The notes beneath the pieces are model-generated. The model was given only the letters and a program-made list of their open reading frames with translations. It was not told the origin of the DNA and did no database searches. Position numbers and translations under genes: made by a program. Source: a bacterium (lineage in GTDB: Bacteria > Vulcanimicrobiota > Vulcanimicrobiia > Vulcanimicrobiales > SCRA01). Taken from it: a stretch of DNA of 35,465 nt. Below are positions 3,968-8,676 of this stretch, piece after piece (position 1 is the first letter of the stretch; each line of letters begins with the position of its first letter). The stretch is from assembly GCA_004297985.1 (NCBI GenBank), contig SCRA01000051.1, forward strand, positions 1 to 35,465, given 5' to 3'.

Positions 3968-4816
3968 TCAACGGGCGGCGATCAGCGCTACGCCGACGGC
4001 CGCGCAGGCAATCCCCGCCCACTGAATGCGCCCCAGGCGCTCGTGGAGGACGATTCTCGCCAGGAGCACCGTGCTGGCCGGGTAGAGTGAGGTGACCACG
4101 GCGGCGACCGCCAGCAGCGTCTGACGCAGCGAGAGCAGGTAGAGAACGTTCGCGCTCACGTCGCAGAGGCCGGCCGAGGCGATCGCCGCCAATGAGGTGC
4201 GCGCAGGGCGCAGGCTCCCGCGCGCCAGCCACGCGGCAACGGTGAGGAAGGGAACCGAGGCGCCGCGCGCGGCAACCGTCGGCCAGAGTGCCGACGTCGT
4301 TCCCAGCGCCGCGAAGAAGACGTAGAGCAGGCCGAAGCCCAAGCCCGCGCCGATCGCTTCGGGAAGACCGCCACGGCCCAAGCGCACCCCGCCATCGGGC
4401 AGATGCTCGTCGGGGCTGGCGGAGACGAGAACGACGGCAGCGACGGCCAGTGCGATGCCAAGCCACACCGCCGGCGGCGCGCGCTCTCCGCGCAACACGC
4501 CGACCAGAACCGGAAGCGCAATGGCTACGACGCCCGTCACGGGGGCAACGATGCTCATCCTCCCGATGGCCAGGCCCCGGTAGAGCAGCGCAACACCGAT
4601 CCCGCCCGCGACCCCGCCGAATCCCGCCATGATGAGGGCATGCGCCGGCGGGGGCGCCTCGCGGCTCAGCAGCGCCGCCGCGAAGATGCCGACGCCGCCG
4701 ATGAGCTGCGAAGTGACGACCACCGCCCAGACGCCGCTGCGCTTGCTGCTCAGCCCGCCGAAGAAGTCACCGGTGCCGTAGATCGCCGCGGCGGCCAGCG
4801 CCAACACTACCCCCAC
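3968..4816 (-). CDS. EamA/DMT-superfamily membrane transporter
   Basis: A 282-residue, very hydrophobic protein with about ten predicted membrane segments in two homologous halves, as in drug/metabolite (EamA) transporters. Typical features are AAAIYGTGDFFGGLSSKR in the first segment, ALLYRGLAIGRMSIVAPV closing the first half, and VVTSLYPASTVLLARIVLHERLGRIQWAGI in the second half. The start is a GTG, four bases after the stop of the multicopper oxidase gene, so it is probably expressed with it. The substrate cannot be told from the sequence. By context it might export a metabolite or metal-related compound linked to the redox cluster, but that is speculation. Confidence 0.88.
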   Translation of the reverse strand: MGVVLALAAAAIYGTGDFFGGLSSKRSGVWAVVVTSQLIGGVGIFAAALLSREAPPPAHALIMAGFGGVAGGIGVALLYRGLAIGRMSIVAPVTGVVAIALPVLVGVLRGERAPPAVWLGIALAVAAVVLVSASPDEHLPDGGVRLGRGGLPEAIGAGLGFGLLYVFFAALGTTSALWPTVAARGASVPFLTVAAWLARGSLRPARTSLAAIASAGLCDVSANVLYLLSLRQTLLAVAAVVTSLYPASTVLLARIVLHERLGRIQWAGIACAAVGVALIAAR

Positions 4817-4820
4817 GTCG

Positions 4821-6263
4821 CTAGGCGTAGTCGACTTCGGTCATCATACCATCCATCATATGGATATCGTTATGACAGTGGAGGAGCCATCGCCCCGCCG
4901 GAGACGTTGCGGAGAACCGCCATGTCATCGTACCGCCGTTCGGATCTACGAGTGAGGTGTCCTTGAACAGCGGATGGCGTAACGCATGACCGTTGATCTC
5001 CACGATCTCGAAGACATGGCCGTGGAGGTGCATCGGGTGGTGCATGTCGGTCTTGTTGGTGAAGCGCACTTCCACCCGATCGCCGCGGCGCACGGCGATC
5101 TTCTCGGTATTCGGCCAGGCGCTGCCATTCATCGTCCACCTGTCGGAGGCCCACTGCCCGCCGCCCAGCACGTAGGATCGCGAGACGTCGATGCGCCCGC
5201 CGGCTGGCCACGCCCCCACTGCCTGTGCGAGGCCGGCAAGCTCGTACGTGAAGTAGCGCACTCCCTCGAGCGCCGACGGTGAGCCTTGCGGCGTGGCATG
5301 CTCCATTCCCGGCGTATGCACGACGACGGCCTGCTCGAAGGCCATCGGATCCGCCGAGAGGCCCTGCAAGAGCCACGCTCCCGGTTTCGTAAACTCAACC
5401 CACGCGTCGTAGCGCTCGGCGACCCCGACGCGGAGCGCCTCCACGTTGACGGGCTGCGCGAGCGGATTGCCGTCGGCGTGAGTGACGCGCAGTACATGCC
5501 CGGCCAGACGAACGTAGCGCGTCTGCGTCACGTTCGCGTTGAGAATACGCAGCCGAACTCTCTGCCCTACCTGCACCACGATGGGCGACGCTTTCGGATA
5601 GGAGGCACCGTTGATGCAATGTGCGGCATACGCAATCTCGTCGCCCATCCTGTCATCGGGAGACATCGCCAGCAGCTCCGGCGAACCGAGAGGATCGACC
5701 ATCGGAGCGGTGCTCGTTCCGGCGAGCGCCGCCTCCACGCTGGCCGGCTTGGGAACGTCGTGGAAGACCAGCGCGATATCCTGATCGGCGCGCTCGTCGC
5801 GTGGATCCTCGACGACGATCATGCCGAAGAGCCCCAGGAGCGTCTGATGGCCCGCGTGGCTGTGATACCAGCGCGTGCCCGGCGGATCGGGGGTGTACTC
5901 GTAAACAAACGCGCCGCTGTCTGCCACGGGCACCTGCGTGACGTCGGGCACGCCGTCCATAGCGTTGGGTAGGATCATCCCATGCCAATGAATCGTGCTT
6001 GGCTCGCCGGTACGATTGACATAGCGGGCTCGCAGTCGTTGTCCATACCGAATGCGTAGGAGCGGCCCTGGTATCGAGCCGTTGTACGCCAAGCCCTGGA
6101 ACGAGATGCCCGGAAACGGTGCGAAGGTCAAGGGAGTCGCCGTGAGGGAGACGTCGACGACGTCGCTCGCGGCGGCCCGCGCAGCCAGCGGGGGCAGGGC
6201 CTGCACGACCATGGCGCCGCCGGCCAAGGCGAAGCCGCCCGCGATGAATGTCCCGCGCCTCAC
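4821..6263 (-). CDS. Three-domain multicopper oxidase (laccase-like), exported
   Basis: A 480-residue multicopper oxidase with all copper ligands visible: IHWHG (91-95), WYHSHAGH (132-139), HHPMHLHGH (408-416) and HCHNDIHMMDGM (462-473). The Cys463/His464 pair bridges the type 1 and trinuclear sites. Met473, ten residues after the cysteine, is the axial type 1 ligand. The N-terminus MRRGTFIAGG with a following hydrophobic run suggests Tat export, as expected for a cofactor-loaded enzyme. The start is GTG, nine bases after the cytochrome gene. The family oxidises phenols, Cu(I), Fe(II), Mn(II) or accepts cytochrome electrons while reducing O2 to water. No CueO-type Met-rich insert is seen. The substrate is open; context suggests an electron route through the adjacent cytochromes. 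Confidence 0.93.
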   Translation of the reverse strand: MRRGTFIAGGFALAGGAMVVQALPPLAARAAASDVVDVSLTATPLTFAPFPGISFQGLAYNGSIPGPLLRIRYGQRLRARYVNRTGEPSTIHWHGMILPNAMDGVPDVTQVPVADSGAFVYEYTPDPPGTRWYHSHAGHQTLLGLFGMIVVEDPRDERADQDIALVFHDVPKPASVEAALAGTSTAPMVDPLGSPELLAMSPDDRMGDEIAYAAHCINGASYPKASPIVVQVGQRVRLRILNANVTQTRYVRLAGHVLRVTHADGNPLAQPVNVEALRVGVAERYDAWVEFTKPGAWLLQGLSADPMAFEQAVVVHTPGMEHATPQGSPSALEGVRYFTYELAGLAQAVGAWPAGGRIDVSRSYVLGGGQWASDRWTMNGSAWPNTEKIAVRRGDRVEVRFTNKTDMHHPMHLHGHVFEIVEINGHALRHPLFKDTSLVDPNGGTMTWRFSATSPAGRWLLHCHNDIHMMDGMMTEVDYA

Positions 6264-6272
6264 GTCACGGCC

Positions 6273-6881
6273 TCATCCATCGACGGTGACGGGTACGTCC
6301 ATCGCCGCGCCCTTGCCGTAGCGCACGCGCACGATCCACGGACCTCCCATCGTGAAGCGGACCTTGGCCGCAACGACGTGCGGGTCGTCGGTCTTCTGCA
6401 AGGGCACCCAACCCGTGCCGTGCTCCCTCGCCCCCATCCGCATCACGGCCTCCACCTGAACGTCGCTCGGCGGCGTGCCGGAGAACGTCACGAGCACCGT
6501 CGCCTGATCGGTCGGCTCCGCGGGCACGATCTTTACGACCGGCTTCCCCGTGCCGCCGTCCAGCCCCGAGAGATAGGCGACCAGATCGGCGGCCTGCGCG
6601 TCGGTGAAGCCGAAATTGGGCATCGGCGCCTTGGGATGCTGGATCTTGTCGGCGACCTGAGCGGCGGTCAATCGCTTCTCGATCCCCACGAGCGCCGGAC
6701 CGATGCCACCGGTGAACCCCGCGCCGTGACAGCCCTCGCAGCCCGAGGCCTGCACGAGCTTTGCGCCCTGCGCGGCATCGCCCCCGGCGAAGGGCTCGCC
6801 GGCGGCACGCGCATGGACGACGGAGAGGGCAACGGCGGCAGCGACGGCGAGCAGCCCGGCAAACAGACGCAGGTAACGCAT
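6273..6881 (-). CDS. Periplasmic monoheme cytochrome c with C-terminal YtkA/FixH-like domain
   Basis: A 202-residue protein with signal peptide (about residues 1-27), one class I cytochrome c domain and an extra beta-sandwich domain. Heme attachment is at CEGCH (48-52). The likely axial methionine is Met87 in APMPNFGFTD, followed by the standard C-terminal helix ADLVAYLSGL. From about residue 115, the segment VKIVPAEPTDQATVLVTFSG through VRFTMGGPWIVRVRY resembles YtkA/FixH-like domains, found with copper and cytochrome oxidase assembly proteins. The gene lies three bases after the heme-barrel gene and nine before the multicopper oxidase gene. Inference: it carries electrons, and perhaps copper, between the outer-membrane cytochrome and the oxidase. 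Confidence 0.85.
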   Translation of the reverse strand: MRYLRLFAGLLAVAAAVALSVVHARAAGEPFAGGDAAQGAKLVQASGCEGCHGAGFTGGIGPALVGIEKRLTAAQVADKIQHPKAPMPNFGFTDAQAADLVAYLSGLDGGTGKPVVKIVPAEPTDQATVLVTFSGTPPSDVQVEAVMRMGAREHGTGWVPLQKTDDPHVVAAKVRFTMGGPWIVRVRYGKGAAMDVPVTVDG

Positions 6882-6884
6882 GAC

Positions 6885-8075
6885 TCAGCCTCCTTGGCGT
6901 GCGCCGATCGGCGTCACGTGGATACCCTCGGTGGAGTTGAAGGTATAGCGGCGCCCTGGGAGCCACGGCCCGGCCCATCCCAGCCGCACGCCGAAGACGG
7001 GTGCCGCCCCCGGGGCCATCGCCATCTCTCCGGTGATCTTGAGATTCGGCGCGAAGTGGTGCACGAGGTCGAGCGTGATCCGACGATTGAGCGAGTCGCT
7101 CGCAGCCACGTCGTAGCGCACTACGACGTGGTTGCGCCAGCCAAAGTCTCGCTCATACTCGACGAAGTATCCGTTCAGCGGCAGATTTGTGGTGCCGAGA
7201 TCCGGCTGAGCGTCGTGACCGTGGTAGTACATCGTCTGGATCTGGAACGTCGGCCGCTGGTAGGAGTAGTAGATCCCCTCGCGCGTGAAGGCGTCCTGGC
7301 CTGCCGCGCCACCCGCCGCGTCGCGCAACGGCGCGCTGCCCTTCATGGCCACCACGCCGATCGTATAAGGCAGGTCCATGCCGCCGTAGGCAAGGTTGGC
7401 GTCGAGGACGCGCGGCGACGTAGCGGAGTTGTAGTCGAGAGCGTCACCGGCTCCCACGTCGCCCGTCAGCCACGAAAGATTGTACATGAACTCGTTCGAC
7501 ATCCCGTTGAAGGCGACTCCCCAATGGGAGTCGTTGGGCGCAAAGCCGTTCTGCCCCGAGGTCTGCGTGGCCAAGAGATAGTCGCCGATCGTGAAGCCGT
7601 GTGCCGGCATGAACGGGAACGGCGTGTGGTACTTGCCGACCTGGATCGAGTTGGTACCGTGAAAGAGGCCGTTCCACGAGAGCCACATCTGCTCCGTCAC
7701 GCCCGGCTCTCCCGTGTCGACGATCGGCTGCTCCGCATACCAGGTCACGTGGGGGCCGATGAAACCTGCGCCTAGCACAGAGAGCGTGGAGACGGAGGTC
7801 TGTGCTTTCTGCTCTCTGTTGGCCAGAAACGAGTCGATCTCCACGTGCAACGCAACCGGAAGGGTACCGCTCTGCATGTGCTCCTGGAGGTCCTGGAAGT
7901 TCATCATCATGGTCATCATGCCGTACGGCTTCATGCCGGGAAAGCTCGTGTGGCAGAGCGTGCACGAGACGCCCTGACCATTGGCGAAGACCGGGATCGC
8001 CGTTGCTGTTCTGGGTACGGCGAGTGGAATGAGCGCTAGCAGCGCCACGCACCATGCGCGAAACGAAAAAGACAC
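6885..8075 (-). CDS. Cyc2-like fused monoheme cytochrome-outer membrane beta-barrel
   Basis: A 396-residue protein with a signal peptide (residues 1-26), a single N-terminal heme site CTLCH (38-42) and then a porin-like barrel of alternating aromatic/polar strands ending in GVRLGWAGP and a short tail. The heme context PVFANGQGVSCTLCHTSFP followed by a proline/glycine turn (KPYG) matches the pattern of Cyc2-family outer-membrane Fe(II)-oxidising cytochromes, in which one heme is plugged into a barrel. An unusual run of methionines (residues 53-58, MMTMMM) follows the heme. The GTG start is preceded by a strong GGAGGGAGG ribosome site. Family resemblance is by motif only, so the electron donor could be iron, another metal or something else. 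Confidence 0.75.
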   Translation of the reverse strand: MSFSFRAWCVALLALIPLAVPRTATAIPVFANGQGVSCTLCHTSFPGMKPYGMMTMMMNFQDLQEHMQSGTLPVALHVEIDSFLANREQKAQTSVSTLSVLGAGFIGPHVTWYAEQPIVDTGEPGVTEQMWLSWNGLFHGTNSIQVGKYHTPFPFMPAHGFTIGDYLLATQTSGQNGFAPNDSHWGVAFNGMSNEFMYNLSWLTGDVGAGDALDYNSATSPRVLDANLAYGGMDLPYTIGVVAMKGSAPLRDAAGGAAGQDAFTREGIYYSYQRPTFQIQTMYYHGHDAQPDLGTTNLPLNGYFVEYERDFGWRNHVVVRYDVAASDSLNRRITLDLVHHFAPNLKITGEMAMAPGAAPVFGVRLGWAGPWLPGRRYTFNSTEGIHVTPIGARQGG

Positions 8076-8130
8076 GTGAAAGACCTCCCTCCGGTGGCGG
8101 TAGCGACGAGGCCGCGCGGACGCGGCGAGG

Positions 8131-8676
8131 TCAGATCGCCGGAGGGGGTCGCTTGAAACGCCGCGTACCCATGCGCGCGGCGAAGGGCTGCAGCGGCACG
8201 CGAACGCCCGTTCTGGTGCACCACTTCAACGAGGGCCCGTCGCCATAGCGGCGGAGGTAGGCCGCGGGCGCACCGGCCGCGCAGCGCCCGACCAACCCGA
8301 AGAAGAGCGTGAGGGCAACGGCGACAAGCAGCGCCGTCAACGCCTCGACCACGCAGCCGATGAGGTCGGGCGTCTGGCCCTCAAGGCGCTCCAGCAGCGC
8401 GAAGCCGCCAACCTGCACGATGGAGAGGCCTGCCCACAGGTGAGGCAGCGCGGGAAGCGACGGCGGATGCACGGCGCGCCCCGCGGCGGCGCGCACCACC
8501 AGCAGCGTTGCACCGAGAATGGCGAGGGCCGACGCCACATCGAGTGAGGGCGCGAAGTACGCGTGGCGTCCGTCCGCGAGATCGCGTCCTTGAACGAGAT
8601 AGGCCGCGGCGTGGCCAAGCAGGGTCACTGCGACCGCGACACACGCCACCCAGGCCAGGCGAAGTCTACCCGTCAT
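8131..8676 (-). CDS. Small integral membrane protein, function unknown
   Basis: A 181-residue protein with four hydrophobic segments: roughly residues 8-28, 46-62, 80-96 and 105-130. A basic tail (MGTRRFKRPPPAI) ends it. I do not recognise the family. It heads the run that continues with the Cyc2-like barrel (55-base gap), cytochrome c and multicopper oxidase, and follows the radical SAM gene by 54 bases on the same strand. By position it could be a membrane partner of the redox cluster, for example in assembly or quinone coupling. It shows no heme-binding CxxCH, no obvious His pairs across helices and no lipobox. Confidence 0.65.
   Translation of the reverse strand: MTGRLRLAWVACVAVAVTLLGHAAAYLVQGRDLADGRHAYFAPSLDVASALAILGATLLVVRAAAGRAVHPPSLPALPHLWAGLSIVQVGGFALLERLEGQTPDLIGCVVEALTALLVAVALTLFFGLVGRCAAGAPAAYLRRYGDGPSLKWCTRTGVRVPLQPFAARMGTRRFKRPPPAI

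Follow-up and report, generated by a model that had tools for sequence, protein, structure and literature searches.

We propose that a set of minus-strand genes in the 35,465-nucleotide stretch of bacterial DNA analyzed here (hereafter the window) constitutes a copper-responsive redox operon connecting the outer membrane to the periplasm. Electrons from Cu(I) or Fe(II) would enter at the heme of an outer-membrane barrel, pass to a cytochrome c and reach a multicopper oxidase (MCO) that reduces O2; we assign this reading a probability of about 0.5. The source genome comprises 3.19 Mb in 90 contigs, and the features on which the argument draws are the following:

8131..8676, minus strand: leader ORF coding for a 181-aa membrane protein with the C-terminus RFKRPPP-AI-stop
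8140..8151, minus strand: RPPP codons CGA CCC CCT CCG (leader residues 176-179), followed by two residues and the stop
8082..8150, minus strand: predicted mRNA hairpin that joins the RPPP codons to the Shine-Dalgarno (SD) sequence of the barrel gene by base pairing (minimum free energy, MFE, -40.1 kcal/mol; z -3.0)
8084..8092, minus strand: SD of the barrel gene, GGAGGGAGG; the barrel start codon is GTG at 8075
6885..8075, minus strand: Cyc2-like fused cytochrome-porin, 396 aa, with signal peptide, heme plug and 16-strand barrel
7893..8000, minus strand: heme plug AIPVFANGQGVSCTLCHTSFPGMKPYGMMTMMMNFQ, with CTLCH and the invariant Met53, Met56 and Met57
6966..7856, minus strand: predicted 16-strand outer-membrane beta barrel, residues 74-370
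6273..6881, minus strand: periplasmic cytochrome c gene, 202 aa, with CEGCH and its own signal peptide
6561..6779, minus strand: cytochrome c domain with CEGCH and an invariant PMP, Met87 being the candidate axial Met
6324..6527, minus strand: weak YtkA-like match, under the Pfam cut-off; modelled as a beta domain in a fused relative
4821..6263, minus strand: three-domain MCO, 480 aa, with all T1, T2 and T3 ligand motifs
3968..4816, minus strand: EamA gene, 282 aa, Pfam EamA

The gaps along the five ORFs, from leader to EamA, are 55, 3, 9 and 4 bases, in agreement with the compact run of same-strand genes (gaps of 3-55 bases) described in the initial annotation, which was made from the sequence by itself. 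Its recognition of a cytochrome c with an extra domain likewise holds, as Pfam assigns Cytochrome_CBB3 to the 202-aa protein (6e-12) beside the weak YtkA-like match, and so does that of a full-ligand MCO: the 480-aa protein contains three Pfam Cu-oxidase domains with the motifs HWH, HSH, HLH and HCH and a Met axial ligand. These motifs are identical in the relatives with complete genes, and laccases are the closest solved relatives of this MCO. The five-gene set that it had put forward survives in part, in that the succession leader-barrel-cytochrome-MCO is repeated across many related genomes, whereas the EamA gene is kept downstream in the closest relative only and is best regarded as an accidental neighbor.

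In 29 of 32 loci (31 from Eremiobacterota and the window), heme barrel and cytochrome c are joined in a single ORF, about 555-650 aa long, and this fused form is found in two families of the class, for which reason splitting within the window's genus provides the simpler history. The split arrangement is confined to three loci, all in that genus, where the separated cytochrome carries its own signal peptide and, in the window, lies 3 bases from the barrel gene. An MCO gene comes next in 30 of the 31 loci whose contigs allow the test, the exception being L046, and in a more distant family the same slot is filled by a two-domain MCO with unchanged ligand motifs. The barrel-cytochrome fusion and the constant neighborhood of two oxidase types are the strongest evidence that cytochrome and oxidase cooperate. 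At the level of sequence and gene order, it is thus strongly supported that barrel, cytochrome c and MCO act as one electron-transfer unit, as had been suggested from the window, and the genes did not prove to be scattered in relatives, which was the arrangement named at the outset as speaking against such a unit. Given that the three form a unit, electrons would most naturally flow from the barrel heme via the cytochrome c to the MCO. The three split loci of the window's genus are not joined in the barrel tree, which parts the window (6885-8075) and L034 from L047; the cytochrome and oxidase of L047 are much nearer to those of the window than its barrel is, and the barrel gene alone has therefore possibly been exchanged.

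AlphaFold2, with an alignment of 31 sequences, models the barrel with 16 strands between residues 74 and 370 and the plug with low confidence. The best PDB matches of this model in Foldseek are 16-strand porins, and when a fused relative was modelled, a helical cytochrome domain and then a beta domain came after the same barrel, with porins once more as the best matches; the predicted fold is hence the barrel that had been anticipated. Pfam returned no match for the 396-aa protein. A single CXXCH motif follows the signal peptide (CTLCH, residues 38-42), its cysteines and His being invariant in the 31-sequence alignment, as are Met53, Met56, Met57, His150, Met156 and His159, and some of the fused relatives contain Met-rich linkers of the GMxMxGM kind. 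These Met and His residues and linkers suggest Cu(I) as the substrate and a candidate metal site in the barrel.

Profile comparison shows that homology to those barrels of the phylum that resemble Cyc2 more closely extends over the full length. With three Cyc2-like proteins from proteobacteria, among them one with the exact motif AXPXFARQT, hhalign gave 97% (E 1.3e-10, 94 columns), and here the homology reaches no further than the plug and the first part of the barrel; homology among Cyc2 proteins is itself described as restricted to the N-terminus (PMC5566968). The published description of Cyc2 specifies AXPXFAR[QK][TY] five residues upstream of CXXCH, PXL four residues downstream, a 16-strand porin and a length of at least 365 aa (PMC8406198). 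In the window the first of these reads AIPVFANGQ, and nearly all members of the family similarly keep AxPxFA with NGQ in place of R[QK][TY], and have PGM in place of PXL; the length of 396 aa and the 16 modelled strands agree with that description. The Cyc2 identity initially proposed is therefore upheld by the heme, the length, the barrel and the plug homology, but not by the R[QK][TY] and PXL signature. Compared with Cyc2 of A. ferrooxidans, Mariprofundus PV-1 and Leptospirillum (Cyt572), the window's barrel shares a signal peptide, a plug with a single CXXCH, the AxPxFA start, a 16-strand barrel, a length over 365 aa and N-terminal profile homology, while FGRxFK of Cyc2 is YGMMxMM in its family. 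Unlike Cyc2, this family has a fused C-terminal cytochrome c and a further domain in most genera, and the window's operon includes an MCO partner and a copper-type leader. Manganitrophus and neutrophilic iron oxidizers resemble the present case in having Cyc2 and MCOs in one genome, with neither a shared Cyc2-MCO operon nor a fusion described in the available portions of those reports (PMC9040806, PMC5566968). In the accessible parts of the open-licence papers we likewise found no Cyc2-like barrel that is fused to a second cytochrome or shares an operon with an MCO.

The connection to copper comes from the leader. A search with its profile recovered three strong matches away from the barrel, all in genomes lacking the barrel, and these leaders have the RFKRPPP end and an SD-pairing hairpin as in the window. 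Further, when 16 canonical CopC genes were examined, 15 had an ORF ending in R[PA]PP upstream, in one case 3.3 kb away, and the contig of the sixteenth is too short. None of the 16 genomes with CopC has the window-type barrel, compared with 32 of 149 genomes that have it (hypergeometric p 0.016, uncorrected for relatedness), and CopC and the barrel alternate within four genera. Based on the CopC-CopD operons of this leader and on the published copper-responsive leaders, we place the operon in copper biology; by virtue of the leader's other operons, an electron donor tied to copper is more likely than Fe(II). The three matched loci have the order leader, exported protein, CopC and CopD::cytochrome c (L140:4899-9111, L141:4820-8661, L142:5428-9597); the fusion of CopD to a C-terminal cytochrome c, confirmed by Pfam in two of the three, is itself unusual.

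The foremost alternative is that the barrel oxidizes dissolved Fe(II) and the electron travels on the cytochrome c to the MCO or another oxidase for the reduction of O2, in which case copper control could merely fit the supply of the Cu cofactor to the synthesis of an iron-oxidizing MCO. Isolate names suggest an origin in peat, mine drainage and groundwater for several relatives, and we counted this provenance for Fe(II), together with the Cyc2 plug homology detected by hhalign. The 16-strand barrel is likewise as in Cyc2 (PMC8406198), and a Cyc2-like gene in a metagenome-assembled genome (MAG) of Eremiobacterota has been read as possible iron oxidation (PMC8357290). We nevertheless regard Fe(II) oxidation as an unlikely account of this operon, as the plug is Met-rich and departs from the AXPXFAR[QK][TY] and PXL motifs, the leader type is common to CopC-CopD operons, and the same genome has more Cyc2-like paralogs about 10-15 kb from heme-copper oxidase genes.

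We consider it more doubtful still that the operon represents conventional copper tolerance, with the MCO alone serving as a periplasmic cuprous oxidase and the barrel and cytochrome acting separately, for example in sending electrons outward or in passing copper through the pore. The MCO indeed matches the CopA and CueO families, below the curated cut-offs (TIGR01480, 198 of 479 bits; CueO, 117 of 525). Operons of the copABCD type, moreover, include an outer-membrane barrel, and we counted this parallel in layout for the same explanation. Like CopABCD/PcoABCD, the window has a single operon for an MCO, an outer-membrane barrel and an additional periplasmic domain, and in sister genomes a leader of the window's type precedes CopC-CopD. 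It differs from those systems in that the operon is devoid of CopB, CopC and CopD (Pfam gave no CopB or CopC matches for the window's proteins) and that both the barrel and its partner carry heme; furthermore, the adjacency of barrel and MCO in 30 of 31 loci persists though the type of MCO changes, which argues against separate functions.

The 181-aa protein, a four-helix membrane protein that the initial annotation had counted with the redox system, appears instead to be a copper-type arrest leader. It gives only a sub-threshold match in Pfam, and shows neither a DUF2946 match nor a conserved Cys pair (CXXC/CXXXC), having two invariant His instead; across genera its family retains His22, His38, Glu96 and Glu99. 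The C-terminus reads R[FL]xRPPP just before the stop, with RAPP in one member, and in the 22 loci with a leader directly upstream of the barrel R[PA]PP is found a few residues from the stop; in 6 of 32 loci, some of them truncated by contig ends, neither the gene next upstream of the barrel nor the one before it proved to be a leader. ORFs ending in RPPP number 30 of 2657 in the barrel loci vs 0 of 2067 around paralogous barrels. As RNAalifold detected no hairpin common to a MAFFT alignment, tail and SD being offset differently from locus to locus, the hairpin was tested by per-locus folding, synonymous recoding and pair-swapping. In 19 of the 22 loci the MFE fold has the RPPP codons paired to the SD of the barrel gene, the tail-SD pairing of the window exceeds that of synonymous recodings (p 0.003), and a tail pairs more strongly with its own SD than with swapped ones (permutation 0/5000), although effects of base composition are not fully removed from this comparison. 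Given this predicted pairing and a layout matching that of CutF-CutO and CruR-BfrG, the protein is most likely a regulatory leader of the copper-sensing arrest type and not a redox subunit. That it might be an inner-membrane subunit for electron transfer or transport, which any view of the operon could accommodate and with which the two His and two Glu conserved at the protein level are consistent, seems improbable in view of the near-invariant C-terminal RPPP, whose codons pair with the SD of the next gene, and of its homologs or analogs that precede unrelated copper genes and TonB-receptor genes.

Published precedents exist for such leaders. Copper-responsive leaders control a TonB receptor by arrest in CruR-BfrG (PMC9426467) and an MCO by way of an SD hairpin in CutF-CutO (PMC9973294), and RAPP or RGPP leaders precede copper genes in Streptomyces, one of them being a four-TM protein with a predicted His/Met copper site (PMC12992588). 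As far as the available portions of these accounts extend, CutF-CutO-CutG of Rhodobacter capsulatus resembles the window in having a small exported leader, Pro-rich at its C-terminus, that immediately precedes a metal operon including an MCO, and in a hairpin that masks the SD of the next gene, predicted in the window. In contrast to CutF, the window's leader is a sequence-unrelated, multi-helix membrane protein without CxxxC, and it is followed first by the heme barrel and only later by the MCO. The leaders of Bordetella CruR-BfrG and Streptomyces, like those of Eremiobacterota, have a RAPP-like C-terminus and a TonB receptor or copper gene downstream; the Eremiobacterota leaders differ, again with respect to the accessible descriptions, in nearly always having RPPP for RAPP/RGPP and in being without a DUF2946 match and CXXC. 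We regard RPPP as a putative ribosome arrest motif; it speaks against this that, when RAPP-like sequences of E. coli and B. subtilis proteins were tested, most are described as not stalling (PMC10987492).

On our preferred reading of the operon as a copper-responsive redox system, the leader would act as a nascent-chain sensor: R-x-R-P-P-P would pause the ribosome, the hairpin would open and the ribosome-binding site of the barrel gene would be freed. The pause would couple production of the downstream proteins to periplasmic copper, which could either promote or relieve it. A reduced metal, Cu(I) as the first choice and Fe(II) as the second, would then be oxidized at the plug heme of the barrel, and the electron would pass to the cytochrome c, which is tethered to the barrel in most genera and separate in the window. 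In the MCO, electrons probably enter at the T1 copper and O2 would be reduced at the trinuclear site, for which the ligands are in place. The cell would likely benefit by being rid of toxic Cu(I) at its envelope, as with CueO, CutO and CopA, with the site of oxidation extending in this case to the outer membrane. The genome contains seven matches to subunit I of heme-copper oxidase (COX1), and the MCO is therefore not required for respiration; this, together with the failure to find RuBisCO in the genome, makes a protective or auxiliary system more likely than a main respiratory chain.

Cyc2-like genes serve to label uncultured bacteria as iron oxidizers. In many Eremiobacterota, a subfamily of such proteins with a cytochrome fusion, a tie to an MCO and a copper-type leader points to copper instead of, or besides, iron. 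More speculatively, and with rather less than even odds in our estimation, these systems might represent a new class of outer-membrane cuprous oxidases, in which a two-heme porin-cytochrome oxidizes Cu(I) in its pore and hands the electrons straight to the MCO. Control would lie with a new, multi-helix type of copper-sensing arrest leader, exchanged among this operon, CopC-CopD::cytochrome c and TonB receptors across the phylum, and iron oxidation could then no longer be safely called from Cyc2-like proteins. The leaders would likewise constitute a phylum-wide set of candidate metal-sensing arrest peptides whose arrest codons double as the anti-Shine-Dalgarno strand. Other small membrane ORFs with an RPPP end were observed (L035:2-547, L036:3456-4553, L043:71-676, L059:5063-5590), and similar ones are located downstream of the operon in L055, L057, L060 and L061. 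Such ORFs directly precede a TonB-dependent receptor of 771-791 aa, with an intergenic hairpin before the receptor, and in four loci the pair of RPPP leader and TonB receptor stands just ahead of the barrel.

Exact peptide patterns recovered 26 barrel loci among 84,980 species, each represented by one genome; all 26 are MAGs labelled Candidatus Eremiobacterota, Vulcanimicrobiota or just 'bacterium', and these labels place the group in Eremiobacterota/Vulcanimicrobiota, a restriction that depends on exact patterns, which distant relatives in other lineages could escape. Among 149 genomes of the phylum, 113 have some barrel homolog, and the window's own subfamily is found in 31 genomes besides the window; no plasmid-borne relatives of the barrel were found. 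An extra copy of the cytochrome c gene is situated beyond the leader on its far side in one locus (L016:3256-3846), and in a genus in which no leader was found an SCO1-like protein and an Nramp-type transporter are coded near the operon (L037:11536-12486, L039:2634-3917). The source genome has three single-heme Cyc2-like paralogs (L065, L066 and L067; G000 C54:5944, C30:7410 and C30:137534), each about 10-15 kb from a COX1 gene, which are better candidates for an iron-type chain than the window's barrel. A second subfamily of heme barrels (L068-L071, L100-L112) has an ANGQGG plug and mostly a fused C-terminal cytochrome, with no RPPP leader near it in the loci checked; one of its members, L068, has a long MGS repeat linker.
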